From: Clonostachys chloroleuca
Taxonomy: Eukaryota; Ascomycota; Sordariomycetes; Hypocreales; Bionectriaceae
Length of the DNA: 64,000 nt
Assembly: GCA_037952775.1 (NCBI GenBank)
Contig: JBANAY010000003.1
Location: 23,684,001-23,748,000 of the forward strand
Direction: 5' to 3'
The first letter of the stretch is position 1, and every line of letters begins with the position of its first letter. Below, one piece after another: positions 8,870 through 60,483 of this stretch. Both the position numbers and the translations under genes were made by a program. Under the pieces are notes generated by a model. The model made no database searches. It saw only the letters and a program-made list of their open reading frames with translations, and was not told the origin of the DNA.

Positions 8870-9018
8870 CAGTGGGTGTGCAAAAGTTTGCGACCACCTG
8901 ACCCTACTGCCTTTTCGCGCCGATGTGTTCGCGATCCAACCTCCTTCTTTTAATATATACAATACAGCTAATTTATAAGTAAAATACATCGCTTTAGGGT
9001 TGAGATATCAGGAAATCA

Positions 9019-10850: not shown

Positions 10851-11127
10851 TAATTTTTATAGAATATAATTTAGTAGATATAGTAAGATATCCCCTAATC
10901 TTAAATATATAGATTAATAGAGTTACTACCTAATAGATTATATATAGTTATCTGTATATATAGATAGTATATAAAATATTAATCTACTAGCTTTAGGTTA
11001 TCTAGAAATATATTTATTATTCTAATTAGATACTTTTTAGGCTAAAAATATATAATCTAAATTAGAAGGTTAGAATAGGTATATAGTATTATAGTAGGGG
11101 TAGTTATAAACTTTTGCTAGGTTAGTT

Positions 11128-30255: not shown

Positions 30256-30917
30256 GGTGTTTGTTGTTTTAAGGTCAGAAATAGATGTCGATGATGAGTT
30301 TTGTCTAGTGACTAGAACAATCTCAATTTCTCGCAATACAGAAGAGGTACATTAATTGCCACTGATGCTTTTAGATCGATAGGAAACAAGGCGGGAATGG
30401 CTGGGGAGACTCTCTCACGTGTTGTGCCACCGGCCCACCCAGAACCTCCCCACCCACCCACACCAGCTGTGGCCAGCTTCTCAAGATTGAGTGGTCAAGA
30501 GAGGTACGTCTATATATCACGTTGGATTCAAGATAAAATTTGGAAATGTAAACATGTAAATACAATAATTAGGCCTTGTGGCTGACGACATTCTGGAATT
30601 TGTGTGCGCTTGGTTGCGCAATTGTTCAAATATTGACTGTCTCCTATAACTCCGCCACCAATGCATGATGAACTGGAACGCAATAATGGGAACAAAACAT
30701 CAAGGTCAGGTATTCATTTATACCTTTCGGCGTGATACCAGCACTAAATAATGAGTAGAACAATTTATTTGGTGGGAATAATGGCCACTTCCTTGCGCAT
30801 CCATGCTTTGACTAAGCACACGGTCATGACAAGCATGTTCAACCCGTCACTATGAAGGATAGGCTGTTGCGACGTGTATGGTAGTATCTGATTCCTCGAG
30901 CTTTTTGATCAATAACT
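30256..30917. promoter_or_regulatory. upstream region of the esterase with CCCACCC cluster
   Basis: GGCCCACCC at 30432-30440 and CCTCCCCACCCACCCACACC at 30445-30464 sit about 180-210 bp before the esterase ATG and include the exact octamer TCCCCACC (30447-30454). The rest is the 3' flank of the C2H2 regulator. Confidence 0.55.
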
Positions 30918-34208: not shown

Positions 34209-35830
34209 CTAATCTCTCCATGTAATTGTCTTGTACCTGAGAAACTCACCTAGTCCCTGTGAGGCATTGAACCTCCCGTAGCCGCTCTTCTTGGCTCCCC
34301 CGTGAACAAGTGAAGCTTCGTCGTGCACGGTCATGGAGTTGATGTGGACCGCCCCGGTTTCGTACTTCCGGGCGATCCGCAGCGCCGCCTTGAGGTCCTC
34401 GGTAAAGATAGCCCCCGAGAGCCCGTAGTCGGTGTCGTTGGCGATGCTGAGAGCCTCTGCCTCTGTCTCAAACGTCATAACGGATACGGTGGGCCCGAAA
34501 GACTCTGTGTGGTAAATCTCCATGTCCTTGGACACGTTGGAGATGATGACAGGTCTCATCTTTGTGGGCTGGTCCTCTACGGCCTCGGCATTGCCCACAA
34601 GGGTCGTCGCGCCCAGAGACACCGCGTTGGCGATCAAACCCTTGTTCTTCTGCACAGCCGCTGAATTGACGAGCACGAATGGCGGGTTGGTGGATCCAAA
34701 GAGTTTCTCAGTAGCTTCTTTGAGGGCGACGCCGAATTCTTCAGCGACCGCCTTATGCACAAGGATGCGCTCTGTCGACATGCATACCTGGCCGCTCTGG
34801 GGAAGTAGATTGTAAGCAAAACGAAAGCAGATGTGATAAAATATGATGGGCAATCCTTTAACACGGCTAGATATAACTTACGTGGATGAAGGCGCCTAAA
34901 ACGCACGCCGTAGCGGCCTTTTTCAGGTCGGCATCCTTGAGGACTATGGCGCTGGCCTTGCCCCCAGCTCCAGAAGAAGCGGCTTAACGTGTTTCCCAGC
35001 GAGACTGGCAATGATGCTGCCCACGAGCGTGCTTCCCGTAAAGTTAATCTTCTTGATCGCCCGGTGAGCGATGAGAGATTCTGTGATGGCAGCCGCATCG
35101 GCCGTTCGATGATAGATAACATTGAGGCAGCCGTCGGGCAGCCCAGCTTGGCGGAACACGTCGCCGAGTGCCCAGAAGACGCGCGGGCTTAGCTCGGAGC
35201 CCTTGAGGACGGTTGTGTTGCCGGCCGCGAGAGCGAACGCGACTGAGCGTGCTCCGAGCACGTAGGGAGCATTCCTGCAGACGAGGTTTGTGAGAAAGGC
35301 GTCTATGTATAGGGGCACTAATTAATTGTCTAGACATACCATGGGGCAATTGCGAGGACAACACCATATGGCTCCTTGACTATGATGGCATGGGAGCCCT
35401 CTTCCGCCGTCGTAGGAACCGATCCTTCAACTGCAGCCTCGATCCTCCCGCCGATGTCCCTCAAGATCTGCACCGTGGCGTTGAGGTTAATCTCCATGAA
35501 CTGCCGGCCCGCACCCGTCTCCTGGCTCTGGTACGTGAACAGCTCTTCCTTCCTGCTGAGGAAAATATCGGCAGCCCGGAACAGGATATCTCTACGGAAG
35601 CTTGGCTTTGTCTGGGACCACGAGGGGAAAGCTGCCTGAGCTGCTTCAACTGCCCCGTGGGCGTCGCTTATTGAAGCTGCGGAACCATCCCATAGCTTTT
35701 TGGCGTTAACAGGGCTAGTTACTGGGAATGTCGTTGTGGACGTGACATCCTTTCCATTGATGATGAATGGAACGATGTCGAGAGTATTGGGCTTGTCAGA
35801 CCCACCGTTGGCCTGTTCACTTGGGCTCAT
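34209..35830 (-). CDS. aldehyde dehydrogenase (salicylaldehyde/vanillin-dehydrogenase-like), one-base frameshift
   Basis: Exons 35830-35340, 35274-34882 and 34796-34209; 490 aa if one base is restored. Family marks: PFIINGKDV start, NFTGSTLVG, the Glu loop LLLELG, catalytic Cys in SGQVCMSTER, and ESFGPTVSV with GAVHINSMTV near the end. This style matches NahF-type salicylaldehyde dehydrogenases. In exon 2 the frame is lost directly after LLLELG. A run of five G at about 34961-34965 would need six to continue into GKASAIVLKDADL, which is present in the next frame and leads correctly into the last exon. Either a recent null mutation or a homopolymer sequencing error. Function in context: oxidising aldehydes released by the stilbene-cleaving enzyme. 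Confidence 0.87.
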
Positions 35831-36659
35831 GTTTAACAATGAGGGTATAAGAGTCGCAAAATAGTTTTAAAAGAAACCTTTGGCACCTTAAGACGTAGTC
35901 TAATGGGTATTTAACCTTTCCTATATTCGAATCACCTGCTGGTGGCGATGCCAATTGCTACAACATTCATTCAGCTCCAGGTGGATATTTCTTTGAGTGG
36001 CAGTATGTTCTTTTCCTCACCTCGCTCCACCCGAATGAAACCCCATCTATATCTCCATTAAAAGAAATAAGACTCGGCAGTGGCTTCGAAACATCTGCCA
36101 TCAATGCTTCGGAATTAGCCTAATAATTTGTATTTTATTTCTGTGCCAGCTGATATCCCTTTTCTCGGATTGTCAGGTTATTGTGATACACTACGCCACT
36201 GCAACTCCCAGGGTGGGGAGGACGGTGGGGAGTTGGCTCAGTACCACCGGTGGGGAGTCTCGATGGATTCTCATACTGTACGATTCCCGCGCTCAGCTAC
36301 CATGATGGATGCCTCTCTAGAACTAATCTGTGTTGGAGATCAAACTGCAGATTCCCAGCTCCATGGGGTCGTCACCATTATTAGCCTTATAGTCCATCTT
36401 GTCCGGCTCTCGCTTTAGGTTCATCTGGGCTGGCTTTTCTTTATGTAGCTATAGGGTAACCCAAGCTTTCACAGCTCGACAGCACTTCGCGAAAGTTACC
36501 TACGGCCTCATCAAATCTTCGGGCTCATACTGCCCACCGTGTTGAGTATTACGCGTCCTCGGTCCGACCCATCCGTTGTAAATTGCCAGACTATATCAGT
36601 AGATATCATTACAGACGGTAACCGAGTCCGACCCGACTTTCAACCGCAACAAAACCAAT
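35831..36659. promoter_or_regulatory. bidirectional promoter, ALDH / P450, with three GGTGGGGAG copies
   Basis: Three exact GGTGGGGAG copies at 36212-36220, 36224-36232 and 36249-36257, all within 46 bp, lie between the divergent starts (35830 leftwards, 36660 rightwards). This is the densest cluster of the motif in the window and sits 380 bp from one start and 400 bp from the other. Confidence 0.65.
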
Positions 36660-38453
36660 ATGAAGCTGCTTGAAAAACATTCCCAAGTGTCGCTGCTTGC
36701 TGGCGCATTGGTTTTACTATGGATTCTTTATCAAGCATATCTATTCATCTCATTCCGTCAAAAATACAGTTTCCCCAATCTCGTTCCTGGAGGACTGCCC
36801 TTCTTTGGAAATATGTTCCAAATCCCAACCGATACAGCGGAGCGGCGCCTCTACTTTCATGGCCTGGCCAAAAAATACGGTGAAATGTATAATGCTGAAT
36901 GAGTCTATAGCTGAAAAAAGAAAGAAAAAAATGCGATGCTGACATCTCATTTCGCACAGATTCACACTCAAAGTCGGTTCTAACTACTTAATGTTCATCA
37001 ACTCTCAACGCGTTGCGAATGAAATATTGGATAAGCGTGGGGCTCGGTATATTTCGCGACAGAATCTACCTATGCCAGGCGATGTTGCCTCTGGCGGCAA
37101 ACGCGTCGTCTTCATGCCATACGGTAATCTTTGGAAGTGGGAGCGCAAGCTCATTCACGAAATCATCGGCCCCGGAAACCGCAATGTCTTTGCCCCTCTG
37201 CAGGACATGGAGTCACGAACATTGCTCTATGACTACCTCATGCAGCCGGACTTGTGGCACCAGGCTCACGCTCGATATGCTAGCTCCCTCATCATGAGCA
37301 TGGTATATGGGAGGAGGACGAAGTTGGGAGACCCTAACGTTGACAGAATCATTGACACAAATAACGAGATCATGAAGATGTTTGAACCCGGATCGAGCCT
37401 GATTGACGCGTTTCCATTCTTGGCTTATATACCCCTCCCGCGCTCTATCCAGCCATGGAGATGGTGGGGAGATAGTGTCTTTGAAGCATCCAAGAGGTAT
37501 ATTTCGACCACTCCGTAGTTCCCGTTCAAGGTACGGTTGTTGACTTTCAGCTAGGAACTTCATCGAAGAGTATGAAGGCCTCGCGGAGCGAGAAGCACAA
37601 GGCAAAAATGTCACATGTTTCATGTCTGAATTCAAGAGGCTTGGAAGAGACAAGGCCCTTGATTATGAGTCGACTGTGTTCTTGGGTGGCTCCCTCATTG
37701 AAGCCGGATCTGACACCACACGTGTGGCTCTGAACCAGTTGATGGCCGGGGCAGCCCTGTTTCCCGACTGGATTCAGCGAGCGCGCAAGGACTTGGATGA
37801 TATTTGTGGCGCTAATGCTGAGAGACTTCCGACTGCTAGCGATATCACGAACCTGCCTTACGTAAAAGCAATCAGCAAGGAAGTTCTGCGATGGAAGTAA
37901 GTACACTTACCCGGCGTCATTTGTGGCAGGCTACCAACCATGGTCTAGTATATCACTCCCTGAGATCCCGCACTCGTTGATCGAGGACGACTCCTTCGAA
38001 GGCTTTAACATTCCCGCGGGAACCAGCGTCATGTGGAACAGCTGGGGCCTGCATATGAGTTCTTCCGAGTATGAGCAGCCTGAGCGATTCTGGCCCGAGA
38101 GATTCATGAACGATGACGTGGACAAGCCGATCAAGGGACACTTGGCATTTGGGACAGGTGAGTTAACAAATTCGCCCTTTACCGTGTATCATAGCCAAGT
38201 TACTGACCGTCTGGGTTGAATAGGTCGGCGAGTATGCCCCGGTTGGACCATTGCCAGCAACAGTCTCCACTTGTTGATCGCGCGTGTCGTCTACTGTTTC
38301 GACTTTCATCAAGTTTCGGGACATCCGATCCCAGTTGGAAAGCCGTTCGATATTGGAACAGAGAAGCCATACGAAGTGAAAATTACGGTCAGAAGCCCGG
38401 CTCACGCGGCGTTGGTCAAGAGGGAGTGTGAAGAATCGGCGAATATTGAGTGA
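36660..38453 (+). CDS. cytochrome P450 (third; FGTGRRVCPG)
   Basis: Five exons (36660-36886, 36960-37496, 37555-37896, 37949-38157, 38224-38453), 514 aa. N-terminal anchor at residues 10-30, PNLVPGGLPFFGN hinge, I-helix EAGSDTTR, K-helix KEVLRW and heme loop FGTGRRVCPG. Family resemblance is to fungal O-demethylase/ring-hydroxylase CYPs of the OrdA/CYP64-like type. The acceptor at 37948 (TCTAG) rather than the nearer CAG at 37929 restores the frame and the expected IPHSLIEDD. Divergent from ALDH; O-demethylation or hydroxylation of a methoxylated aromatic is a reasonable guess. Confidence 0.9.
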
Positions 38454-38694
38454 TTATGAGATTGAACGAAGTAGATGTCGGGGCGTGGAAAAACATGACA
38501 GACGTTTGATAGATGAGCCTGCTGAAACGTCGAGAAAGAGAGGGATAGACTAGCCCTAAATCCATCCATCTTACAGTTTCACTTTTTCTTGCATCATAAA
38601 TGGATCACCACATGTCAAAACATTTAGTGGTATTAAACCAGTCCACAAGTTGCACAATCTAACTAGAATTGATATTTCTGCTTGTCCCTCGAAT

Positions 38695-39774
38695 CTACAA
38701 GTCTGCTCTCGCGTCCTCACCAGCCCATGCTCTCCTAATGACCTCCCTGATAAGATCTCTGTCAATATCTCTTGGGTTAGGATAAGACTTGCTGACGGAA
38801 ATATCAGCCGCCTTATCAATATCATCCTCCCTGAACCCTATGGATCCCAGACTACGGGGAACACCCAGCCTGTTGAGCAGGCTGTTAAGACCGTGGAGAG
38901 CATCGCCGTTGCTAGTTGGAAGGGCACTAGCAAGGGCTTCCATGGCTTTAGGGACTTTGGGCGCGTTGTACGCCAACGCATGCGGGAGGACAATTGTGTG
39001 CGTCTCGGCATGGGGTAGATTGAACGAACCACCCAAAGTGTGGCAGAGCTTATGATGGAGAGACATTCCCACACTACCCAAGCATGTTCCGCACAACCAA
39101 GCTCCATACTGACACGTAGATCGAGCGGAGATAGAGTCGGGATCATCTAGCAATTGCACTGCTCCTCTTGCGAGTGCCCTCACGCCCTCTATAGCCATGA
39201 GACTGACGATGGGGTTAACATTAGGCGCGTACAGAGCTTCAACGCCGTGCGCAAGAGCGTTAATAATGCTCGTGAGGGACATAGGCAGAGGAAGCGTGAG
39301 GGTCAAGTCGACATCGTAGATGACAGTCTTTGGGAGAATTGAAATGTTGGTCTGGGTTGTCTTGATGCGATCAACAGTCTCTCCGAGAATGGGAGTCACC
39401 TCACTACCAGCGTATGTAGTAGGAATTGCAATATGGTAAAGATCTTTGCGGAAGCTGATGGCCTTTCCAAGGCCAGTGGTGCTACCACCTCCAATTGAAA
39501 TGAGTACATCGGACTCTTTGTCTTGACAAAATCGTAGAGCTTTCTCAGTAATGCCCAAGGGAGTGTGCATGGTAGCCTCGGAGAAGATGGAAGCATCCTC
39601 TACATGAGGCTTCAAAATCTCAGTGATCTGCCTTGCTTGTTCGATCTGGTATGGCGTAGAGAGGACTAAAGGACGACGGAAGCCGAGTGCCCGGAGACAC
39701 TGTGGAAGTTGCCGGGTTGAACCACGGCCAAAGATAATTTTGTGAGGCAGCGGACTGTAAACGAAGGACTCCAT
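38695..39774 (-). CDS. maleylacetate reductase (iron-containing alcohol dehydrogenase family)
   Basis: Single exon, 359 aa. It starts FVYSPLPHKIIFGRGS, has the nucleotide-binding SIGGGSTTGLGKAI, the strand IPTTYAGSEVTPI and the metal/active-site run NALAHGVEALYAP followed by HHKLCHTLGGSFNLPHAETHT. These are the hallmarks of maleylacetate reductases, which lack two of the iron ligands of ordinary group III dehydrogenases. The enzyme reduces maleylacetate to 3-oxoadipate with NAD(P)H. It is head-to-head with a hydroxyquinol-type dioxygenase, which makes maleylacetate, so the assignment is strongly supported by context. Confidence 0.95.
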   Translation of the reverse strand: MESFVYSPLPHKIIFGRGSTRQLPQCLRALGFRRPLVLSTPYQIEQARQITEILKPHVEDASIFSEATMHTPLGITEKALRFCQDKESDVLISIGGGSTTGLGKAISFRKDLYHIAIPTTYAGSEVTPILGETVDRIKTTQTNISILPKTVIYDVDLTLTLPLPMSLTSIINALAHGVEALYAPNVNPIVSLMAIEGVRALARGAVQLLDDPDSISARSTCQYGAWLCGTCLGSVGMSLHHKLCHTLGGSFNLPHAETHTIVLPHALAYNAPKVPKAMEALASALPTSNGDALHGLNSLLNRLGVPRSLGSIGFREDDIDKAADISVSKSYPNPRDIDRDLIREVIRRAWAGEDARADL

Positions 39775-40165
39775 TTTTGGTGATCTAAGTTTTTGTTCGC
39801 AGTGAGAATTGAACTAAGTGATGAGACAATATTTCTTCACATCCATCCGCCACCTTTATTTCCGGGAAGCCTCCGAAATACGCCTAGAGCTCATTCCTAA
39901 CAGTTGTCAGTTGTTTTCCAGTACCCACGCGGGCTTCCGCGCTTTCCACCCATAGCCACCCGCGGACCACCCGCCTCATCCCCACCATCGATGGCATCGA
40001 TGGGTCTCTTAATGCTACTGTAGTCGTTCCGGTGCCGATTCATAATCCGATGCATAAAAATTGATCCTGAAGGTATGAAAATACGTCCATCTTCATTGGA
40101 GGCATACGCCAACGATACGAGATTTAATCATATTGGCCAAGGTAGTCCAGTAAACACATTCCACC
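39775..40165. promoter_or_regulatory. bidirectional promoter, maleylacetate reductase / intradiol dioxygenase
   Basis: 391 bp. Contains TACCCACGCGGG near 39920, AGCCACCCGCGGACCACCCG around 39955-39973 and the exact octamer TCCCCACC at 39979-39986. Confidence 0.6.
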
Positions 40166-41200
40166 ATGTCTCATATTCGCCCAGATACCGCCCCGTTGAA
40201 AAACCTCACCACCGACAATATTACTGAGAATGTCGTGGCCATCAATTCTTCTTGTTCGGACCCCCGTACTCGCTTCCTCTTCGAGAGGCTTGCTCATCAC
40301 CTTCATGACTTCGCGCGCGAGACTCGGCTCACGACATCAGAGTGGATGACAGCTATACAATTCCTCACCAGGACAGGGCAGATTTGCACCGACACTCGAC
40401 AAGAGTTCATTCTTTTGTCCGATGTGCTTGGACTATCCCTGTTGGTGGACTCAATTGATCACCCAAAGCCGCCCGCGTCTACCGAGGGGACTGTTCTCGG
40501 CCCCTTCCACGCCCACGGAGCTGAGCAATTGGCCTCGGGTGAGGCCATCTCGCATGATCCCGATGGAGAGCCACTGTTAGTTGTGTGTTCAGTGAAAGAT
40601 TCACGAGGCAACCCACTGCCAGACGTGGAGATTGATATCTGGGAGACAGACTCCAATGGCTTCTATGACGTGCAGTATGCGGACCGTGAAGGATTCGACA
40701 ACCGAGCTATACTACACAGTGACAAGCAGGGAAATTTTCATTTCAAGGCTATTGTCCCAGTTTCATATCCCATTCCAGACGACGGGCCTGTAGGACAGCT
40801 TCTCAAAGTCCTCAATCGACACCCCTACCGACCTAGTCACATGCATTTCAAATTCAACAAGGCTGGTTACGATCCGTTGATAACGTAAGTTGTAATTATC
40901 CCAACAAACTAGGGTTCGACTGACGTGATCAGGGCACTCTATGTTCGTGGTGACCCATATGAATCCTCTGACGCGGTCTTCGGTGTTAAGGAGTCCCTCA
41001 TTGTCGATCTGAAGAGGGCGTCTGATACACCTGGGCTCTCTGAGACATATGGAGTACTGGAAACCACAAAGGTACTGACATACGACTTTGTCCTAGTCTC
41101 CGAAGCCGAGGTAGATGCGTTGCGGCATGAAAAGGCAACACAGTCGGCTGAAAATCTTAGGAATGGTGTTAAGGTAGTTAATGGCACTCTTTCTTATTAA
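40166..41200 (+). CDS. intradiol ring-cleavage dioxygenase, hydroxyquinol 1,2-dioxygenase-like
   Basis: Two exons (40166-40884, 40933-41200), 328 aa. An N-terminal helical dimerisation region is followed by the motif TEGTVLGPFHAHGA and the Fe(III) ligands: Tyr in GFYDVQYADRE, Tyr in RHPYRPSH and two His in RPSHMHF. GPFH after the TEG turn is characteristic of hydroxyquinol/catechol 1,2-dioxygenases. Together with maleylacetate reductase it forms the hydroxyquinol branch: 1,2,4-trihydroxybenzene to maleylacetate to 3-oxoadipate. Catechol cleavage to muconate is the alternative; the partner gene favours hydroxyquinol. Confidence 0.93.
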
Positions 41201-41627
41201 TCCAAGTTGATATTAAAGCTCTACTAAAAAGAAAAGATGAACGGTCCTGCATTTATAAGATGAAAAAGCTCCCTATGTTGAGATATAAACTTAACCGGTT
41301 CTAGAGCCATAGCCATTTTTGCATTTAAACACGCTGATGTTCCTTTCAAAAAGCTCGCCATACAATGATGAAAAGCTGTCATGTGGAGGAACGCTGTAAA
41401 CCGTTGAGTTGTGGCCTTGCCATTGTTCGCTATAGAGACCTTTACCCATCTTACTGCTCGGGAATGTAGTATGCAATGGTATCAATTTAGATGCATATAT
41501 GTGCCAAGACACGGAATAGACTAAAGTCTTTGACTTGCATTGTCTCTGGGAGCTGATAAAATGATGACCTATGTCACTGGGGAATGAGCTTGTAGAATTA
41601 CTGTATTATATGTGGTAAACACTACTT
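41201..41627. other. convergent intergenic region
   Basis: Tail-to-tail gap between the intradiol dioxygenase and the VAO-type gene. No coding signal recognised. Confidence 0.45.
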
Positions 41628-43569
<1,942 letters not shown>

Positions 43570-44077
43570 TTGGACTATCTTTTCTGTGCTGTTTAAACAA
43601 GGTTGGAAGAATATATCAATTGCGGGCAGGTTCAGTCCTTCTTGAACAACATGGAGGGCGGTCCTAAAGACCTTAGAATAACTAGACAAAAAGAATCCCA
43701 CCATTATTTGCCTCACAATTTGACAGTAGAGTAGCACATGGTTCGATCCGGGTGGCACAACCTCATCGCGTCTCATGTGGTACAATCACTTAACACAGTG
43801 TAGTCGAGACCACCGGAATGGTGGGGATTTGATACATACCAAGCACATTTTACCCACTCTTGGGCCACATCCACACCGGCTTCCCCCACACAGCAGTGAA
43901 ATGAAGTCATTAGCTGGCTAGCAAACCAGTGGGATCTTGTACTATGAGGAGAATGGAGATGTTTGCCGGAGAGTCCGGCGAAGATATAAATTCGAGATGC
44001 TATATCCAAAATTGCTCGAACTTGCCATCTGCACCTGACCATAAGATAGAAAAAGGAAAATCATTATTTATTCCACC
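43570..44077. promoter_or_regulatory. bidirectional promoter, VAO / CAO-like dioxygenase
   Basis: 508 bp between the two aromatic-side-chain enzymes. TTACCCACTC near 43852 and TTCCCCCACAC near 43883 are looser relatives of the shared element. No coding support for the open frame upstream of the VAO ATG. Confidence 0.5.
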
Positions 44078-45658
44078 ATGGCACACGTCGTTCCAGGAGT
44101 CCCAGGCACCCGCTTCCCCAAGCACTATGCCATGAGCAAGTGGAACGAAGACCATCTGCGCTTTGAGGCCGACGCCTATGAGCTCGAGGTCATCGGATCA
44201 ATCCCCAGCGAGATTCATGGAGTCTTCTACCGCGTCCAACCAGACCACGCATTCCCACCCATCTTTGCCGAAACTGAGATCCCTCTCAACGGCGACGGCA
44301 ACGTCAGCTCCTTCACTATCAAGGACGGCCATGTAGACTTCAAGCAGCGCTACGTGCGCACGCCTAAGCTCATCGCAGAGCGTGAGGCCAGGCGTGCCCT
44401 CTTTGGCAGATACCGAAACAAGTTCACGGATGATCCTCGAGTGCAGAATGTTCTCAAGGGCACCACGGCCAATACCCATGTTGTATTTCACGACAACAAG
44501 CTCATGGCGCTCAAGGAGGATGCTCGTCCCATGGAGCTTGACCCCATCACGCTCGAGACCCTCGGCTACATTGACTACCACGGCACAATGCGTGCCCCCA
44601 CGCACACTGCGCATCCCAAGGCGGACTCTGCCACGGGAGAGCTTGTGTCCTACTCTTATGAGGCTGCGGGTGAAGCAACCCCAGACATCTGTTCCTTCAC
44701 CGTTGACAAGGACGGCAAGCTCTCCGAGGAGGTCTGGTTCAAGGCCCCATGGCCCTGCATGATCCACGACTTCTGGGCCACCGATAACTGGGTCGTTTTT
44801 CCTATCAATGGTCTCAAGGCCAGCCTAGAGCAGATGAAAGCCGGTGGTGACCACTTCTACTGGGACGAGAACCTCGACTACCAGCTGCTTGGTGTAATTC
44901 CTCGCAGGGGTGCCAAGCCAGAGGATGCAAAGTGGTTCAAGACCCCTCAGGGCTGTTACTCGCACACCATCAACGCCTACGAGGAGGATGGCAAGCTGGT
45001 ACTCGATGCAAACGTCTGGACCGACGCCCACTTCCCCTTCTTCCCTAACACCAAGGGTGAGAGGTTCTTCACTGATCCCCGCAAGGTCAAGGCACCTATC
45101 CTCCGCTATAGGTTCGACCCTACAGCTAGCACGGACAAGATGATCCACCCCGAGGGTGTACTCGTCGACGGCGTGAATGAGTTTGGCCGCATAGATGACC
45201 GTCTGCTGGGCAAGAAGTATTCACGCGTGTGGATTCTCAAGATCGATCCCACGCACCCTATCAAGCTCAACGACCACGAGGACGCCGCTGGAAATGTCGG
45301 TTTCAACACCCTGGTTTGCTTCAACTTTGACACAGGTGACCTGCAGTCGTACCGTCACGCGGACGATACCACATTCCAGGAGCCCGTCTTTGTACCCAGA
45401 CACGAGGGTGCTGACCCCGAGGACGGGTATATCCTCGTCGTAGCTGATCGGTATCGCGAAGGTCGCAACGTTGTGCTGCTTTTTGAGGCTTCGGATATCA
45501 CTAGAGGACCCCTAGCTGAAATCAAGCTGCCTTTTAAGTTGATGGATGGCCTGCATGGTAGTTGGGTGGATGGCAAGGATGTTGATGCAGCCAGGGCGGC
45601 CAGTGAGGCCCGACGAGCCAATGCCAATGGAACGAATGGAGTTGCAAAGAATCAGTAG
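44078..45658 (+). CDS. carotenoid-oxygenase-family stilbene/lignostilbene-cleaving dioxygenase (CAO-1-like)
   Basis: Single exon, 526 aa, the length of the characterised Neurospora resveratrol-cleaving oxygenase CAO-1. Seven-bladed-propeller RPE65 family with the four iron-binding His in order: THTAHP (~179), CMIHDF (230), CYSHTIN (296) and DGLHGSWV (~505). PSEIHGVFYRVQPDHAFPP and LNGDGNVSSF are typical of the fungal stilbene group rather than retinal-forming enzymes. The reaction is O2-dependent cleavage of the interphenyl double bond of a 4'-hydroxystilbene, giving two aromatic aldehydes. High GC in the third codon position suggests strong expression. This gene defines the likely upper-pathway substrate of the cluster. 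Confidence 0.93.
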   Translation: MAHVVPGVPGTRFPKHYAMSKWNEDHLRFEADAYELEVIGSIPSEIHGVFYRVQPDHAFPPIFAETEIPLNGDGNVSSFTIKDGHVDFKQRYVRTPKLIAEREARRALFGRYRNKFTDDPRVQNVLKGTTANTHVVFHDNKLMALKEDARPMELDPITLETLGYIDYHGTMRAPTHTAHPKADSATGELVSYSYEAAGEATPDICSFTVDKDGKLSEEVWFKAPWPCMIHDFWATDNWVVFPINGLKASLEQMKAGGDHFYWDENLDYQLLGVIPRRGAKPEDAKWFKTPQGCYSHTINAYEEDGKLVLDANVWTDAHFPFFPNTKGERFFTDPRKVKAPILRYRFDPTASTDKMIHPEGVLVDGVNEFGRIDDRLLGKKYSRVWILKIDPTHPIKLNDHEDAAGNVGFNTLVCFNFDTGDLQSYRHADDTTFQEPVFVPRHEGADPEDGYILVVADRYREGRNVVLLFEASDITRGPLAEIKLPFKLMDGLHGSWVDGKDVDAARAASEARRANANGTNGVAKNQ

Positions 45659-46107
45659 CTTATTAATTACCTAGCAGTAGTGTATCAGATTGTATATCGG
45701 TTGAACTCGATTGAATCTAAAAAGACTCCAACTCGTCGTCAAGACAACAATAGTCGCTCACCGCACGGAATGTAGCTCACGTAAAGTTTCTTATATGAGT
45801 ATATAACTCTTCTTCACCAGGCTCAGATTAGCTTAGCTATTTGGCCAATACAGGCTGGAGAGTAAATGCACGTTACTTGAACTACAACGCGGATTCTTGA
45901 ACTGTCGTTCTGCTCGTATCTATACGCATCTAGAGCCCCGATTATAGACATGAACGTAGACCTTGGGATGGCGTTCATTCGGCACAATATCTGCGGTATC
46001 TATCAATACAGCACGTCGGCATGCTACATAAATCGCGCGGTGCGGTAAAATGCTGTATTAGAGGCAACTACCCAAGCTACCGACTATCCATATCATCGCT
46101 TCCTACT
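45659..46107. other. convergent intergenic region
   Basis: Tail-to-tail gap between the CAO-like gene and SDR 2; no coding signal recognised. Confidence 0.45.
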
Positions 46108-46890
46108 CTAAAACACACCACTTCCTCCGCTGATGGGTATAAACGCCCCGTTAATCCAGCTCGCCTTGTCTTCAGAAAGAGTCGCAACCGCCCAAGCAAC
46201 CTCCTCGGGTGTACCGACCCGAGGAGCTACAGGCGTGGCATCGATCACGGGCTGCAAGGCCTCCCTCACAAAGCTGGGCGCCGCGTTAAACGCGTCTGTC
46301 CCAATGGGGCCCGGGGCGAAGGCGTTGACAGTGCATCCGTATTTACGGGGCAGCTCTATCGCCCAGCACCGGGTGTAGACCTCAACGACGCCCTTGGTGC
46401 CCGCATAGATGCTCGAATCCGGGGCGGGGCATCGGGAAATAGAGCTGCCAATGTTGATGATGCGCGAGTTCTTGCGTGACAAATGCTTGAGAACGGCACG
46501 AGTGAGAAAGAAGAATGTTCCCCTCGCGTTGAGGTTGAAGACATCATGCCACGTCTTGTTGACCTTTTCATCATCAGGATCGTCAAGAGGTGCGGGACGG
46601 TTGATGCCGGCGCTGTTGATCAGGATGTCAATCTTGCCAAAGGCCTTGGCTGCCGCGTCGGCAAGGGTCTGTGGTCCCTCGGGGGTTGACAGGTCGGCTT
46701 CTACAGCGACTGCTCTTCCTTTTGCATTGAGGTCCTCGAGGACCTTTTCTGCATTGGCTTTCTCGCTGGCGTTGGGATAATTGATCACCACCGACGCCCC
46801 GCGGCTAAACAGCTCGCGTGCGATGGCGGCGCCTAATCCTGACGAAGACCCGCTGATTAGAGCGACTTTACCGGAGAGCGATGAGGACAT
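46108..46890 (-). CDS. short-chain dehydrogenase/reductase (SDR) 2
   Basis: Single exon, 260 aa. SGSSSGLG cofactor loop, NSAG in place of NNAG, catalytic Ser in GSSIS and YAGTK as Tyr-x-x-x-Lys. It shares ELPRKYGCTVN, the PGP turn and a WINGAF...SGG ending with SDR 1 (13911-14732), so an in-cluster duplication with later divergence is likely. Alcohol/ketone interconversion on a phenylpropanoid or a benzylic alcohol is the plausible role. Confidence 0.93.
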   Translation of the reverse strand: MSSSLSGKVALISGSSSGLGAAIARELFSRGASVVINYPNASEKANAEKVLEDLNAKGRAVAVEADLSTPEGPQTLADAAAKAFGKIDILINSAGINRPAPLDDPDDEKVNKTWHDVFNLNARGTFFFLTRAVLKHLSRKNSRIINIGSSISRCPAPDSSIYAGTKGVVEVYTRCWAIELPRKYGCTVNAFAPGPIGTDAFNAAPSFVREALQPVIDATPVAPRVGTPEEVAWAVATLSEDKASWINGAFIPISGGSGVF

Positions 46891-47292
46891 TTTGTTGAGG
46901 TGGGTTTTGTTCTATCAAGATAGTAAGAGTAGGTAGTCTTGAGAAATGTGAAGGTGTGGATGAATGGGTCTGTCACTGTTACTAGATACTCATCAAGACG
47001 CCGTTATGATCCTCATCTTTATAGACAGACACGATTGAGATCTGTCGACAGCCCCGTCATAAACGCATACAGGTGGGTTAAAACCAATCGTAGGATGTAA
47101 CTCGGGACAGTGACACTGGGGTATGTTACACCACCGTAGTCAAACTGCTGACCACCCACCTGAGCAGGGTGGGGAGGTTGGAGCCACCGTGTCCCATTGG
47201 CTCTCTATAAAGACAAAACAAGCACAACGAAGCATGTGATTTCGATCATGTTAGCTGCTTTGAATCCAATCACACATATTCCTGTCCTCAAC
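46891..47292. promoter_or_regulatory. bidirectional promoter, SDR 2 / FAD monooxygenase
   Basis: ACCACCCACC at 47151-47160 and GGTGGGGAG at 47168-47176 lie only 8 bp apart in opposite orientation, 117-142 bp before the monooxygenase ATG. Confidence 0.6.
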
Positions 47293-48995
47293 ATGCCCTT
47301 GAACATCGTTATCATCGGAGCTGGGCTGGGTGGGCTCGCTGCCGCCTTGTCTATTAAGAAAGAGACACCAACCCATGATGTTTTCGTCGTGGAATCTGCT
47401 CCTGTTTTGGCCGAGGCAAGTCTTTCGAAACTCGTCTTCGTTGACATGGCCCGCTTACAGTTTCGTGATGTAGATTGGTGCAGGTCTCCAACTCACCCCG
47501 AATGCTACACGACTGCTCCTAAGGTGGGGTTTGAAGCCTAGCCTAGAGAAGCTGGCGAGTAGTCCCGAAGAATTCCTCGTTCGTCGGTTTGACGGGCGCA
47601 AGGTTCTTGGTAACCGCCAAAACTTTGCCGCTGAGATGCTCGACAAGTATAACTCACACTATTGGGACATGCACCGAGCCGACCTACAACTCGCCATGTT
47701 CGAGCGGGCCAAGAGCCTTGGCGTCCGCTTCAAGTTCGGTACCTTGGTGAAGGACGTGGATCTCAGCATACCTCAATTGACGACAGATAAGGAAGAGAAG
47801 ATCACGGGAGATCTAGTGATTGCTGCAGATGGTGAACAATAGAACCTCTCCCCTCCTCTCGTGTGATCAGTTGCTGACATGATGCAGGACTCTGGTCCAA
47901 GACTCGATCCACGGTTCTTGGTAGACCCAGTCCTCCTATCGCCACGGGAGACCTTGCATACCGTATCGTTTTGAAGGCGGAGAACATCAATGATCCCGAG
48001 TTGCTTGACTTCATCAAGAAGCCACGTGTTTGCTTGTGGGTTGGCCCGGAATGCCATGCCATCTACTACCCACTCAGGAACAATACGATGGCAAACATCG
48101 TCCTGCTGGTTCCGGATAATCTGCCAGACAATGTGGCCAAGATGGCTGGTGACCTTTCTGAGATGCGAGAGATCTTCCACGACTGGGACCCACTGTAGGT
48201 TGATTGCTGGCGTCGTTTGACATCCAAAGCAGCCAGCTAACTGATGGTATCAGACTACAAAAGTTTCTATCTCAAGTGGAAAAGATAGAGAAATGGAAGC
48301 TTATGCATCGTGAGTACCATCAAACCTAGGCTGTAGAGGGCCTCTAACAACGAATAGTGGATGAACTGGAGCGCTGGTACAATGACGAGGCCACCGTCGC
48401 ATTCCTGGGCGATGCTTGCCATCCCATGCTTCCCTATATGGCGCAAGGAGCTGGCTCCGCGATTGAAGACGGTGCTGCATTGGGCATCATTCTCTCCAAG
48501 GTCAACAGCAGACAAGAACTTCCCGATGCTCTGAAAGCGTATCAGGATCTGAGAGTTCCTCGTAGCACCGCGCTGCAAAAATGGAGCATGAAGCAGGTAC
48601 GTCTAGTATTTGGCAGAGGCTTCGATTGCAAGATGGGGGATCGGCGTATGATATTAACTTTTGGTGCAGAGACATACTAACCATTTGTCTGACGGACCGG
48701 AGCAAGAAGCCAGGGACCATCTCGCTGAATCTCAACTTTATAATCAGCAACCTGGATACCCATTCTACTGGTTGGTGCCGCCTGCGTCATCAATGCTCTG
48801 GGACCTATCGCTGACATTGTTCATAGGATTGATCCGGCCGCACAAGATTTTGTATATGGGTATGATGTTGTGGCTGAGGTGAGTGAATCCTGAAACCCCT
48901 GTTGGACGTATCTCGTGCTTTGTTTCCATACTCATATACACCTGGGATAGCTGGACAAGATCGGCATCAAGACTACAGCATCAGTTAGTGTTTAG
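47293..48995 (+). CDS. FAD-dependent aromatic monooxygenase (salicylate-hydroxylase-like)
   Basis: Eight exons (47293-47415, 47474-47831, 47888-48194, 48254-48309, 48358-48596, 48670-48770, 48827-48878, 48951-48995), 426 aa. N-terminal GxGxxG (IIGAGLGGLAAA), DG motif IAADGLWSKT, and the FAD-binding GD motif FLGDACHPMLPYMAQGAG. This is the group A flavin hydroxylase pattern of salicylate 1-monooxygenase, 3-hydroxybenzoate 6-hydroxylase and resorcinol hydroxylase. With a decarboxylase and a hydroxyquinol dioxygenase in the cluster, formation of catechol or hydroxyquinol is expected. The first intron (47416-47473) has a GCAAGT donor. ATG 47293 is preferred over 47248 because family proteins start just before the GxGxxG loop. 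Confidence 0.9.
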
Positions 48996-49806
48996 AGAAG
49001 CCGAGTAGTTTATCAATCAAGAAACAAGAGGAATTTGGGGACTGTCCATCGCATTCTTTATATTAAATATGAGAATCTCAATAAAGATTGTTTGTCAGTT
49101 GGTTTATCGTCCTGTTTATTACTGATATACTGAGTTCCATGCCTTTGAGACCGTCGTATGGGTGAAATTTAGTATAAACTCTGTGTCTTTTAATGTGTTT
49201 ATATAGTAATAACAGATTCTACGACTGAAGGTTCTCTTGGTGTCTCAAGTACCTCTTGTCAAGTGCACAGCGCCTCTTTCAACTTCAGACCTTGCACCTA
49301 GCATACGCGAAATCAATCAGTGATCTTCCTCAGCAACATCAGATATTTGATACCGTAAAAAAACCCAACTTTCCAGGATTCCGATATAGCTCAAGGTTGT
49401 ACAACCCCACGGCAGCGCAGCTCCACATCCTTCAACTCTACGTATTGGTTTCAGTGTAGCATTATCCCCCCCCCCCAAAACCCCAACGGTGATAGTTTCA
49501 CTAACTATCATATCAAGTAAATTGTTTTCTGCCGTTGATAAAATCAAAAGGGCTTATGTGGCTACTCCAATTTCAGTGAATGGGCATCGCTTAGGGCGGG
49601 GTGGCGGGTGGTAACGCTTGCGTTTTCACCCACCTCACTCAACAACAAACAGGTGGCAACCAACTCTGGTGGGTGCCCGAGTTTCCCGGTTCCACTGGCA
49701 CGGCTATCTGCAACTAGGCATTTTGGTTCTAGCTTTAAATAATTCGACTTTTTGACAAGTTTATTGACACATCCTTCCCCATCATTTCACGTACAACACA
49801 ATCATC
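48996..49806. promoter_or_regulatory. upstream region of the berberine-bridge-type gene
   Basis: A C11 run lies at 49466-49476. The last 220 bp hold several loose copies of the shared element: GGGCGGGGTGGCGGGTGG (about 49594-49611), TCACCCACC (49627-49635) and GGTGGGT (49665-49671). Confidence 0.5.
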
Positions 49807-51331
49807 ATGGCCTCAGTTCCAAACACTCTGTCTCAGGGCTCTGAGGGCTACGACCAGCTTCGTCGCAAGTTCTTCAACACGCGAGTCCCTGATGTCCACC
49901 CAGCCGAGATAGCCAGCCCAACCACCACATCAGAGGTTGTGGCCGCCGTCAAGAGGGCGCGGGAACATGACTGGAAGATTGGCATCCGTTCCGGTGGCCA
50001 CTTGTTCTTCTGTAACGCATTACTCGAGGGCGGCCTCCTCATCGACACGCGTAATCTAAACCGAGATATTGAATACGACCCTGCGACCAACACAGCTGCC
50101 ATCAGCCCTGGTCACAAGGTTGAAGATGTGACCAAGTTCCTCGAACCCCGTGGTAGGTTCTTCCCGACTGGCCATTCAAGATCTGTCGCTGTTGGCGGCT
50201 TCTTGCTTGCTGGTGGCCAGGGATGCTTCCTACGCGGGTGGGGTTACACCGCCCCTACCTGGGTCACGCAGCTGGAAGTCGTCACCTCAGAGGGCGAGAC
50301 AGTCATTGCTAGTAAGACCCAGAACTCCGACCTGTTCTGGGCAGCACCAGGCAGCGGACAAGGCTTCTTTGGAGTCATCACCAGAATTTGGGTCAAGACG
50401 ATTCCGACGAGAAAGCTCTTCGATATTACCATGATCGTTGATTCCACTGATATCTTCAAGCCTCTCCTCAAGTGGACACTCGCAATGTCCAGCAAAGTCC
50501 CCAAGTACGGCGTGGATCTGTTCTACGCAACATTTTACGCTGACAAGGACGACCCCAATGGTGGCCACGAGTCAGCCGCAAAGCGCGTCTTTCTTGCTAT
50601 CAACTTGACCATCTTTGCTGATTCTTTGGATGAGGCCAAGGTATTGGCTAGTCCGCTAGACTCATTCCCTGAGGAATTTAACAAGCACATTGTTACTACA
50701 GTTCCATTGATGGAAAGGACCTGGGAAGAGCTCTGGGGCCTTCAGGAAAGCTTTCAGCCTCAAGGAAACGGCGAAAGATGGAATGTCGACAGCATTCTTG
50801 TCGATCCCAAAGCTTCTGACGACGAGGCAAGTTGCTCAATATTGATTCAATAATTAAGTGCTAACAATGGGGCCTTTAGGTAATTGATGCCATCACCCCG
50901 GCCTTGTTCAACTTGCCTTCCCGTCTGTCCTCGGGCACATTGTGCCCCATAGACTATTACCCCAATGAGGCGGATCAGGCTCTGAGTCTACCTCAGAAGA
51001 CTTATGTCTCCACCATGCTCTGCTGGAAAGATCCCAAGAAGGACGCGGCTATGGATAGATGGTTGCTCGACGCATATACCAAGGCAGATAAGGTATCGTG
51101 CGGTGTATACGTCGCCGATTTTAACGAGAAGCACAGGAAGCCGAAGGTGAGCCTGGCCAAGACTTCTAGTCTTACAATCGATACTGACTGGTAGAACAGG
51201 TCATGACAGATTCTGCGCTGAAGAAGTGGCTTGAGATAAGGGACAAATGGGATCCTTCCGAGACCTTCATTGGTCATCGTGGGTTCAGTAGTGTTTTGGA
51301 TAAGAGCGCGGGTACTGGTAGCAGGCTATAG
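49807..51331 (+). CDS. FAD-linked oxidoreductase, berberine-bridge-enzyme type
   Basis: Three exons (49807-50826, 50880-51146, 51200-51331), 472 aa. FAD_binding_4 domain with IGIRSGGHLFF (His for 8-alpha flavin linkage) and VAVGGFLLAGGQGCFLRGWG, then a substrate domain. The usual C-terminal BBE NY-x-N is not obvious; the end reads WDPSETFIGHRGFSSV. Enzymes of this family oxidise phenolic alcohols, sugars or alkaloid precursors. There is no secretion signal, so it is probably intracellular. The first intron (50827-50879) uses a GCAAGT donor with a clear GCTAAC branch site. Confidence 0.9.
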
Positions 51332-51845: not shown

Positions 51846-52952
51846 CTATGGATGGTTGGAGTGAAGGTGGCCTTTTTTGAGTTCATAGTTGGGAAGCTCA
51901 TCCGGCTGCCAGTGAACGATTCCCTTCCATTCGCCCGAAAGAGGGCCTCTCAAATCATCTTCCAGGGTGGTTTTGGGCAGATCAAGTTTCTCATTCCATA
52001 TTCCCAGCGGGCGGAAATCGCCGATTGCCTCGCCATCTGGGCCGTAATCGAAGAGAATAGCCTGGACCTGGTGACCCAGGCCCCAATTCAAGCCTTTTTT
52101 GACATCTTCCAAGGCCTTTGGCATGACTTCCTTCGAGGTGACGTTCTCGATCTGCCATTTCTGGCCTGTTAACTTCTCCACCACGGCCAGGATCTCGTTC
52201 TGCGTAACTGTGTAAGATGCAACGTGAATGTACGTATTCTTTGCCTCCTCCATGCGCTCTGGGTTGGTGATGAGCGAATAGAGAGCCTGGGCAGCTAGAT
52301 TACGGGGACCCGTAGACATTGGAACGTTGCCACCATTGTAAATACGTACTTTCTGTTCCTTCATGTCAAATCCTAGAAGTCCGTCGATAACGCACTATGA
52401 ATTTAGGTCAGCTTCCGAGTCTGAGATTCGGTTCTGGAGACTCACGTGGTCGACCCAGGGATTACACAAGATAGCAGTCCAGCTCATCGTATCCTGGGTT
52501 GTCTCTAGATGTTTGACAATAGATCGTTTCTTGGTAGCGAGCAACATGTTTTCAGCAAAAGCTGGGTAGTAGGTCCTGACTCCGTACTCAGAAGGGAAGA
52601 AGCGCTTAACGCCTGCCTTGACGGCTGCATCGATGACAGTCTCATGGTCGACGGTGGACTCTGGTGGGAGAAGCATGATGACAACATCTTGTCCTCGCAA
52701 ACTTTTAACAAGTGACTCAAAGCTGTAGTCTGTGGCGATGACATTCAAGCCAGTACGAAATTTGGCACCCGAATCTTTCCTCGTTAAGACGGACACGTGC
52801 AGTGGCGAGTCTTTTTGAGACAGAAAATGGTCTTGGATATTAACTCCAAGGTTACCACTGGCCTATCAATTCGTTAACATCATGAATCTAGATGTGCTAC
52901 CCATATTCATACGTACGCCAATCAGAACAACGTTCTTGAGCAGGGCTTCCAT
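51846..52952 (-). CDS. NmrA-like / isoflavone-reductase-family protein (second copy)
   Basis: Three exons (52952-52917, 52862-52446, 52394-51846), 333 aa. The dinucleotide loop VVLIGASGNLG is assembled across the first intron at the same place as in the left-end homologue (1-406). AGVKRFFPSEYG follows at about residue 100. The family reduces isoflavones, lignan precursors or related phenolics with NADPH, or acts as a redox sensor. Shared intron position and motifs argue for a common ancestor of the two genes. Confidence 0.9.
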
Positions 52953-59680: not shown

Positions 59681-60483
59681 CCGGCAAAGTTTCTTCTACC
59701 CAGCAAAATAGTCGATCTACATAGCCTCCCGTCGGGGTCAAGACCCGATGGCGCTGTTCGCAACAATGGACCTGACCATTTAGCACTTGAGAGGTTCAAG
59801 CTACGCGAGCTAGCTGAAGGCTGGCCCGCATACAGGTAATGCAGTTTCGATGCCCCTGCTGGACTCATAAGGACAGGAACCAAGGTCGACATTCTACTTT
59901 CAGAGACTCCTGTGAATGGGAGAACTTCGCGTCAATCTTCCATCCCGGAGCACATGTTTACACGACCTGGTCTGGCCGTGTCGCATACGAGGAATTCATC
60001 ACTGCGTCTCAAACTGGCATGGATAAAGGAGCTTTTATTATGCACCGTTGCCATGGAGCGAGCACAGACATCAACGTCGAAGCCACGCGAGCAGTGACCA
60101 AGCTTAAGGCAACAATCACGCAGCGTTTTAAGGTAGACGGTGTGGAGTTCGATATGGAAGCAGACTGTCGGTTCTGCTTTTACTTTGAAAAGATTGATGG
60201 CAAATGGGGTGCTCGGCTTGTGAGGCATTGGTATGAGAAGGACAAGATGATCCTTAGCAACCCCACTAAGGGCCTCCAGCCTGAAATCGATGAGGATAAG
60301 CTGAACAAGTACCCTGGAGGATATAAATATCTCTCATACTGGCAGGAAATCACGATGGGTGTCCGAGTACTAACGGACATGCCCGGGCATAGACGGCATA
60401 TCGACACAGTGAATCTCGAGAAGTATGATGAGCTGTACTGGCTAGCAAAGCGCTGGATGGAAGGGGAGCATACTAAGGTATAA
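59681..60483 (+). CDS. SnoaL-like protein 3 (5' end not resolved)
   Basis: Two supported exons: the open frame ending at 59835 (starting no earlier than 59681) and 59904-60483. They join as [20 protein letters not shown], which fits the family. The domain continues through [33 protein letters not shown] and [14 protein letters not shown] to a C-terminal helix-rich tail. No in-frame ATG is found before the first exon, so either an upstream exon supplies it or the gene is truncated. The fold is that of scytalone-dehydratase/SnoaL proteins; activity unknown. Confidence 0.72.

Follow-up and report, generated by a model that had tools for sequence, protein, structure and literature searches.

Gene clusters built around a stilbene cleavage oxygenase (SCO) have already been published for fungi. 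The gentisate catabolism (GC) clusters with sdoG described by Greene et al. in 2014 (PMC3914699) hold an SCO beside an aldehyde dehydrogenase (ALDH), a salicylate-hydroxylase-like FAD monooxygenase, a ring-cleaving dioxygenase, a C6 regulator and an MFS transporter, and a similar company of genes was found in the 64-kb stretch of the Clonostachys chloroleuca genome analyzed here, which we refer to as the window (C3:23684001-23748000 of the 59.4 Mb, in four contigs, that were searched). However, the GC clusters open the aromatic ring by a cupin gentisate dioxygenase and a fumarylpyruvate hydrolase, whereas the core of the window (genes g14 to g22, 34.2-51.3 kb) has a hydroxyquinol dioxygenase (HQD) and a maleylacetate reductase (MAR), plus a vanillyl-alcohol oxidase (VAO). 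No cupin gentisate 1,2-dioxygenase was recognized among the 29 gene models of the window, by eye and by Pfam comparison of some of their exons. We propose that the core is probably a gene cluster for the breakdown of plant 4-hydroxyphenyl compounds with an alkene or oxidizable side chain, ending in 3-oxoadipate. Comparison supplied the enzyme classes, the conserved catalytic residues of the oxygenase g19 and, in fungi of several classes, a linkage between genes of the g18 and g19 types; the order of the steps, the substrates and the co-regulation of the core genes are inferred. The original prediction had suggested that such a combination of genes may be undescribed. As a kind it is not, given that clusters uniting SCO, ALDH, hydroxylase, dioxygenase, regulator and transporter were published (PMC3914699); the window version of this known type differs by its SCO-VAO pairing and its diverged oxygenase.

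The lower part of the proposed route also has described counterparts. The 3-oxoadipate pathway of Candida parapsilosis (MNX1/HDX1) likewise has a decarboxylating 4-hydroxybenzoate 1-hydroxylase and a hypothesized MAR, but its genes are partly dispersed and no SCO or VAO is described with them in the available parts of the report (PMC8929692). VhyA of Aspergillus niger is, similarly, an enzyme annotated as a "salicylate hydroxylase" that converts vanillate to methoxyhydroquinone, and a MAR homologue was proposed for that vanillate route (VhyA, MhdA, OmeA); however, MhdA is annotated as a homogentisate dioxygenase, whereas g17 of the window is an intradiol enzyme (PMC8336404). The hydroxyquinol cluster of Scedosporium apiospermum resembles the core in that MAR adjoins HQD with a cytochrome P450 near, but the accessible text describes no SCO or VAO in it (PMC8283699). 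A literature search, judged by titles among the matches listed, returned no paper on the combination of SCO, VAO and hydroxyquinol pathway, nor on a Clonostachys stilbene cluster. Gluck-Thaler, Vijayakumar and Slot, in Mol Ecol 27:5120 (2018), reportedly distinguished three SCO cluster types with alternate phenolic-degradation modules, and the SCOs assayed there are said to have required a 4'-hydroxyl; the cluster type of the window might already be among those three. We take HDX1 of C. parapsilosis to be a hydroxyquinol dioxygenase.

The genes of the window are interrupted by short introns, and the 29 spliced models were obtained with a gene finder written for this analysis that uses codon usage and splice signals. 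The Pfam scan covered at least one exon of each model, though not all exons; g01, g04, g13 and g18 had no match among the scanned exons, and the class of g18 was settled by PDB comparison. NCBIfam, a library for prokaryotes, was searched with nine window proteins (best 25 of 42 rows considered), and among the matches listed no family reached its cut-off. The spliced models with the Pfam and PDB comparisons bore out the enzyme classes that had been named for this locus, at the places given for them.

The oxygenase g19 (44078..45658, + strand) is encoded by a single exon as a protein of 526 aa, transcribed divergently from g18. It matched the Pfam RPE65 profile over its full length (410 bits, profile positions 4-469 of 469), and in the PDB it matched 13 chains of stilbene/lignostilbene type at 325-396 bits, with CAO1 (5u8x) at 375 bits. 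Like NcCAO1, NOV1, LSD4 and MapADO, g19 belongs to this family and has four histidine ligands, the threonine plug and the tyrosine and lysine for the 4-hydroxyl. The iron-binding residues H179, H230, H296 and H493 align with H197, H248, H313 and H510 of CAO1, Y112 and K146 align with Y133 and K164, and the threonine plug is kept too. LSD4 holds the phenolic ring by stacking with Phe-59 and the 4-hydroxyl by Tyr-101 and Lys-134, and its Ser-283, the counterpart of a glycine in CAO1, binds a hydroxyl on the distal ring of one substrate (PMC8191317); in NcCAO1, Tyr133 hydrogen-bonds the substrate 4'-hydroxyl (PMC12051055). Both the tyrosine and the lysine are required in MapADO, which cleaves isoeugenol as well as resveratrol (PMC12308385), so that the retention of these residues points to a 4-hydroxyphenyl alkene as substrate and alone cannot say stilbene. 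Based on these residues, g19 is predicted to be an oxygenase that cleaves 4-hydroxyphenyl alkenes.

A protein search with g19 gave 1032 proteins at E <= 1e-60 among 7996 scored candidates, and the best 120 were considered. The first 28 of these, several of them partial, were 53-93% identical to g19 and are referred to here as its clade; the other 92 were at most 46% identical. A 72-row tree without NcCAO1 was built from g19, 23 members of the clade, 46 of the 92 others and two paralogues from this genome; g19 and its clade lay on one side of a branch with support of 100/100, and their stem measured 0.81 changes per site. A quick tree that included NcCAO1 and 31 of the 92 others gave the same split, with g19 and 23 clade rows on one side (SH-aLRT 100), and NcCAO1 fell outside the clade, beside Talaromyces and Aspergillus sequences. 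By these trees, g19 is outside the CAO-1 orthologue group. Among the 120 best relatives, no match was named Clonostachys or Bionectria, although some rows were nameless; the g19 gene may be patchy in the genus, whereas g18 and g21 have congeneric relatives listed, at 98% (a protein of Bionectria ochroleuca, which is Clonostachys rosea) and 99% identity (a protein of Clonostachys rhizophaga), respectively.

The separation of the clade is matched by changes at positions of interest in the active site. The tyrosine and lysine were invariant in all clade rows with a letter at those columns (27 and 28, respectively) and in 92 of 92 others, and the histidine-ligand columns showed single departures in three clade rows (P0006, P0025 and P0028) and one other (P0098). 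In contrast to NcCAO1, whose numbering is used here, g19 has leucine for Phe91, cysteine for Phe310 and histidine for Asn152. At the stacking column (CAO1 Phe91, LSD4 Phe-59), g19 has Leu70; leucine was found in 23 of 27 clade rows and phenylalanine in 84 of the 92 others, which suggests that the stacking phenylalanine is common in the family rather than strictly defining. At the near-invariant Phe310 column, beside an iron ligand, g19 has Cys293 (cysteine in 26/28 clade rows, phenylalanine in 88/92 others). The Asn152 column held histidine in all 28 clade rows and asparagine in 81/92 others, and at the Gly312 column, where g19 has Ser295, serine occurred in 24/28 clade rows, compared to 71 glycines and 14 serines among the 92 others. 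Leucine and cysteine occurred together in 21 of the 28 clade rows and in none of the 92 others; exceptions include P0023, with Phe91, and P0027, with Phe310. The loss of the stacking phenylalanine in g19 speaks for an altered substrate. Together with an identity to NcCAO1 of 42% (196 of 467 positions) and the position outside the NcCAO1 group, it meant that the label "CAO-1-like" could not be upheld as a statement of specificity.

The neighbor of g19 on the minus strand, g18 (about 41628..43572), is a VAO-type 4-phenol oxidase of about 543-557 aa by PDB comparison; its start was picked from homologue length, and the model itself extends to 43704. It matched 33 chains of VAO, eugenol oxidase and p-cresol methylhydroxylase at 318-235 bits over approximately residues 70-588, the best being 9h40 (named p-cresol methylhydroxylase, 318 bits), followed by eugenol oxidase (304 bits) and Penicillium VAO (279-272 bits). 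A histidine and a Tyr-Arg pair align with the 9h40 chain and may be the covalent-flavin and catalytic residues.

The remaining core enzymes supply plausible later steps. The FAD monooxygenase g21 (47248..48995, + strand, 441 aa, 8 exons) is divergent from g20 and had been called salicylate-hydroxylase-like. Its best PDB matches were a 4-hydroxybenzoate decarboxylase (8gsm, 344 bits) and vanillate 1-hydroxylase (8x38, 288 bits), with salicylate monooxygenase 4bjy at 125 bits and salicylate hydroxylase 6bz5 at 101 bits, and g21 is therefore predicted, as the closest type, to be a decarboxylating 4-hydroxybenzoate/vanillate 1-hydroxylase. For g17 (40166..41200, + strand, 328 aa), the top PDB match, 8r2v, is named only as an intradiol dioxygenase (303 bits); hydroxyquinol dioxygenases 8r2w and 1tmx followed at 268 and 225 bits, the 6-chlorohydroxyquinol enzyme 8r2x at 254, PnpC 3n9t at 220 and the best catechol dioxygenase at 114 bits. 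These scores place g17 nearer to hydroxyquinol 1,2-dioxygenases than to catechol dioxygenases, although its NCBIfam matches were only catechol, chlorocatechol (top) and protocatechuate dioxygenase models, all far under their cut-offs. The divergent g16 (38695..39774, - strand, 359 aa) matched 3hl0 and 3w5s, both named maleylacetate reductase, at 350 and 348 bits, and two chains with general names, 3jzd (iron-containing alcohol dehydrogenase) at 362 bits and 3iv7 (alcohol dehydrogenase IV) at 273 bits; the next chain outside this group scored 104 bits. By these comparisons g16 is nearer to MAR than to other iron-containing alcohol dehydrogenases, models of which, with 4-hydroxybutyrate dehydrogenase as the top one, were its NCBIfam matches under the cut-offs. 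The ALDH g14 (34209..35830, - strand, 467 aa, 4 exons) matched Pfam Aldedh with 178 bits on its last exon and an assortment of ALDH models in NCBIfam, none at cut-off.

In the proposed pathway, the iron oxygenase g19 would split the C=C bond adjoining a 4-hydroxyphenyl ring, and g18 would oxidize 4-alkyl or 4-hydroxymethyl phenols to the same aldehydes, or to an alkene for g19. The aldehydes would be converted by g14 to acids of the 4-hydroxybenzoate type, which g21 would decarboxylate and hydroxylate to hydroquinone, or, in the case of protocatechuate, directly to hydroxyquinol. The hydroxyquinol ring would be opened by g17 and the product reduced by g16 to 3-oxoadipate. A precedent for the g21 step is Mnx1 of C. 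parapsilosis, which converts 4-hydroxybenzoate to hydroquinone and protocatechuate to hydroxyhydroquinone (PMC8929692). Because of the latter conversion, the protocatechuate route would not need an added hydroxylation. The flow of substrate to 3-oxoadipate that was originally predicted is upheld in its predicted alkene-cleaving oxygenase, its ALDH and its complete hydroxyquinol ring-opening module. It is strengthened by g21, since the supposed salicylate hydroxylase proved closest to decarboxylating 4-hydroxybenzoate/vanillate 1-hydroxylases and is the predicted step joining p-hydroxybenzaldehydes to hydroxyquinol; for the conversion of hydroquinone to hydroxyquinol, the core has no obvious gene. 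The P450 g15 (36660..38453, + strand, 514 aa, by Pfam) could be offered for that hydroxylation, as a guess. Three divergent gene pairs, g16/g17, g18/g19 and g20/g21, with 391, 373 and 357 bp between the models (approximately 505 bp for g18/g19 if the homologue-based VAO start is used), were counted in favor of one catabolic unit. The core is completed by a short-chain dehydrogenase (SDR), g20 (46108..46890, - strand, 260 aa, by Pfam), and an FAD-dependent oxidase, g22 (49807..51331, + strand, 472 aa), which is of FAD_binding_4 type by Pfam, BBE-like by eye, and had no NCBIfam model above cut-off.

To compare the linkage of these genes in other fungi, we used as a proxy the presence of SCO, g18-type VAO and g21-type matches on equally sized contigs (and in the same species, where named), together with locus tags; 119/120 entries were used for two of the match lists. 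Ten of the 28 clade SCOs shared a contig size with a listed g18 relative, five with a listed g21 relative and 11 with either, whereas none of the 92 other SCOs shared one with the VAO list and one, in Fusarium solani, did so with the monooxygenase list. This co-occurrence of oxygenase and VAO relatives (10/28 vs 0/92; Fisher p 1e-7, ignoring relatedness) indicated that the genes are grouped beyond chance. The shared VAO-SCO contigs comprised five of less than 0.5 Mb and five of more than 1 Mb, and consecutive SCO and VAO tags were found in Cadophora malorum (IFR04_006196/006195), Exophiala aquamarina (A1O9_00874/00873) and Fusarium falciforme (NW754_003905/003904). In addition, VAO and g21 types shared 11 contig sizes, for seven of which no clade SCO was among the listed matches, e.g., Fusarium oxysporum g9914/g9916. 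Based on this proxy, both SCO-VAO linkage and the linkage of VAO to g21-type genes appear to be recurrent across Sordariomycetes, Dothideomycetes, Leotiomycetes and Eurotiomycetes.

The pairwise identities of SCOs and VAOs were correlated (r=0.90 over 36 comparisons among nine species; 0 of 2000 permutations as high). This set consisted of the window and eight of the ten linked cases, the partial F. falciforme case and one nameless contig being left out, and such a correlation would follow from vertical descent alone too. In both the SCO and the VAO tree, Cadophora (Leotiomycetes) grouped with Dendryphion (Dothideomycetes) and other fungi, the rest of which we presume to be Dothideomycetes. 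The support for this grouping was 100/98 in the SCO tree, with inner forks at 99/92, 97/69 and 100/88 and the innermost at 99/41, and 100, 99 and 90 in the quick VAO tree, where a Leptodontidium was included. This placement is compatible with a transfer of the SCO-VAO pair. The idea that the SCO was gained just once along the VAO tree was set aside: by the SCO matches listed, its presence was scattered (10 changes, compared to a shuffled mean of 9.2), which proves neither loss nor gain.

Related genes elsewhere in the same genome put the core into perspective. RPE65 matches were found at eight further sites, one of them partial, and four of the neighborhoods were inspected. At C1:2.82 Mb (C1:2815001-2835000) there is a gentisate-type SCO cluster that has the gene families of the published GC clusters, with an FAA hydrolase, a monooxygenase, a cupin dioxygenase (by eye), an ALDH, the SCO and a regulator (by eye); its SCO is 39% identical to g19 and grouped with Aspergillus fumigatus sequences in the 72-row tree. 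One fungal genome can therefore carry two SCO-type clusters with differing lower pathways. Three further divergent MAR-HQD pairs were found at C3:5.18, C4:5.51 and C3:14.50 Mb. Two of their MARs share 65% and 62% identity with g16 and the third, compared piece by piece, 36-63%; the HQD pieces are 49-65% identical to g17. In contrast, g18 had no close paralogue in the genome (best 44% over part of its length) and the next relative of g21 was 51-54% identical over parts. These comparisons suggest that the lower module is a unit used repeatedly in this genome and that g18, g19 and g21 are the distinctive members of the core. In another of these neighborhoods (C1:5832001-5852000), an RPE65-family gene, 33% identical to g19, has as neighbors an ALDH, a protein that by eye resembles a regulator, and a SnoaL-like protein with 35% identity to g24. 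The region C3:5691920-5717545 is possibly a second VAO-hydroxyquinol locus: a weak VAO relative, matched in two pieces (44% and 34%), is separated by approximately 3.6 kb from a MAR and by approximately 22.5 kb from an HQD.

Several results weigh against the proposed pathway. No gene for the conversion of hydroquinone to hydroxyquinol is evident among the core genes, and no convincing shared promoter motif was found in the 12 core intergenic stretches (6.6 kb), where a scan for zinc-cluster triplet palindromes with spacers of 0-14 (75 patterns) gave at best four sites compared to 0.65 expected. The best NCBIfam model for g21 was a 3-hydroxybenzoate 6-monooxygenase, at 212 bits against a cut-off of 459. 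Equal contig size is a proxy only, five of the ten shared contigs exceed 1 Mb (two of these five with consecutive tags), and VAO linkage was not seen for 18 of the 28 clade members. With three more MAR-HQD pairs in the genome, the lower pathway is also not unique to the core locus. Chance proximity, or a general clustering of oxidoreductases with no single pathway, would agree with the lack of a shared promoter motif and with the surroundings of the core, approximately 100 kb that are largely rich in catabolic-looking genes. However, it would not lead one to expect the linkages that recur across four fungal classes, and we regard it as highly improbable.

Two other readings concern what the oxygenase and the oxidase would do within the core. 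One is plain stilbene detoxification, in which g19 would cleave resveratrol or piceatannol and the VAO would serve independently as the entry point of p-cresol or 4-hydroxybenzyl alcohols. The nearest solved relatives of g19 are indeed stilbene- and lignostilbene-cleaving enzymes, Ser295 lies at the site of the LSD4 serine that hydrogen-bonds the distal-ring hydroxyl (PMC8191317), and ALDH, hydroxylase and dioxygenase occur in published SCO clusters (PMC3914699). This reading is possible but doubtful: the stacking phenylalanine is gone from g19, an ordinary SCO is already present in this genome as part of a gentisate-type cluster, and it is not clear how the core genes would deal with the 3,5-dihydroxy ring of resveratrol. 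The other reading is a two-step cutting of side chains, in which g18 would dehydrogenate a 4-alkylphenol, a dihydrostilbene (bibenzyl) or a lignin-type dimer and g19 would cleave the resulting alkene. It would account for the co-occurrence of g18-type VAOs with g19-clade SCOs and for their correlated identities, the latter being expected from vertical descent as well, and a remodeled pocket (Leu70, Cys293, Ser295) suggests a substrate unlike that of CAO-1. A free 4-hydroxyl is the target of both enzyme types, and VAO forms 1-(4'-hydroxyphenyl)alkenes from 4-alkylphenols, preferentially those with a large side chain (PMC12909556, PMC9684555, PMC6017454). We nevertheless think it rather unlikely, because g18 scored nearer to eugenol oxidase than to Penicillium VAO, and 4-alkylphenols are very poor substrates of eugenol oxidase (PMC6017454). 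Furthermore, PvVAO, from a second fungal VAO subfamily, is good at alpha-hydroxylation of 4-alkylphenols (PMC12909556), and g18-type VAOs may act without a g19, as they also share contig sizes with g21 types for which the listed matches include no clade SCO. The broader version, that the VAO and the remodeled SCO form a widespread, patchy two-step cutter that desaturates a benzylic C-C bond and then cuts the new double bond, and that moves as a pair between fungal classes and docks onto the hydroxyquinol pathway, we consider unlikely. In the main reading, "4-hydroxyphenyl alkene", one that the VAO may make, describes the substrate of g19 better than a stilbene in particular.

If the proposed catabolic cluster is correct, it would give a fungus the means to convert phenolic dimers, stilbenes or alkylphenols to 3-oxoadipate inside the cell. 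It would also suggest why a g18-type VAO adjoins a g19-type oxygenase, with a possible natural counterpart to the oxidase-plus-dioxygenase route to vanillin, and g18, g19, g21, g17 and g16 would be a small set open to testing.

Across the window, the order of genes from the left end is an FAA hydrolase, an extradiol-type VOC protein, an amidohydrolase decarboxylase and a P450, then an AT-rich block, a small YCII-like protein (by eye), an SDR, a beta-lactamase-like protein, an MFS transporter and a P450. These are followed by a dienelactone hydrolase, a zinc-type dehydrogenase, a Zn2Cys6 regulator, an alpha/beta hydrolase (Pfam Peptidase_S9) and a C2H2 regulator. Next is the core, in the order ALDH, P450, MAR, HQD, VAO, RPE65-family oxygenase, SDR, FAD monooxygenase and FAD_binding_4 oxidase, and at the right end are an NmrA protein, a SnoaL protein, a P450, a second SnoaL protein, a gallate-decarboxylase-type protein and an MFS transporter. 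The two regulators and two transporters that had been counted with the cluster are present, but all four lie outside 34209-51331. The regulator g11 (26529..28692, - strand) has a Pfam Fungal_trans domain, and a Zn2Cys6 motif was seen by eye in an open frame upstream of it at 28579-28614, the joining exon not being in the model. The C2H2 zinc-finger regulator g13 (30850..33513, - strand, 745 aa) has two C2H2 fingers by eye, its two longest exons having no Pfam match. The MFS transporters, identified by Pfam, lie at 17.5-19.4 kb and 61.4-63.4 kb.

The AT-rich block (about 7500..12500, no strand), which resembles the product of repeat-induced point mutation (RIP), parts g00-g03 from the remaining window genes; the G+C content of windows within 7501-12500 was 15-37%, and their composite RIP index was 0.72-1.41, compared to -0.49 for 14001-64000. 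The original prediction had drawn two genes from the left of the core into the pathway, an ACMSD-type decarboxylase at 3801 and a dienelactone hydrolase at 23242, and both exist, the latter by Pfam. The nearest PDB match of the decarboxylase was a general amidohydrolase (3nur, 167 bits), followed by gamma-resorcylate decarboxylases (162-155 bits) and 2,3-dihydroxybenzoate decarboxylases (149-144 bits). Enzymes of these two types work on ortho-hydroxybenzoates, which are not products of the usual stilbene cleavage. A single pathway that included this decarboxylase was dropped and the enzyme was left out of the route, because it lies beyond the RIP-like block and its type appears unsuited. Positions 753-4781 instead look like a separate catabolic group, with the FAA hydrolase, the VOC protein, whose extradiol type is weak (NCBIfam 32 bits, far under cut-off), and the decarboxylase. 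The RIP-like block itself sits inside a gene-rich, catabolic-looking region, and several families of the left group recur to the right of it. The left flank beyond the window is, like the surroundings of the core, rich in catabolic-looking genes; farther left, an FAD monooxygenase, a regulator, and beta-lactamase-like and NmrA-like proteins were recognized by eye.

To the right of the core, the NmrA-like protein g23 (51846..52952, - strand) is possibly peripheral. The SnoaL-like g24 and g26 were considered as gamma-formaldehyde lyases of the LdpA type and rejected; the best PDB match of g24 was 3g0k, a putative membrane protein (55 bits), and that of g26 was orange carotenoid protein (28 bits). 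The gallate-decarboxylase-type g27 (59839..60483, + strand) matched gallate decarboxylase 6w54 at 132 bits and pea pathogenicity protein 2 (7jmr) at 125 bits in the PDB, and it is a candidate decarboxylase for dihydroxybenzoates. In the right flank (64633-71121 in window coordinates), a group resembling inositol catabolism was seen by eye, with an inositol oxygenase (its models split), a GFO/IDH-type oxidoreductase, a VOC protein and a sugar transporter, and a polyketide synthase begins near 80.2 kb.

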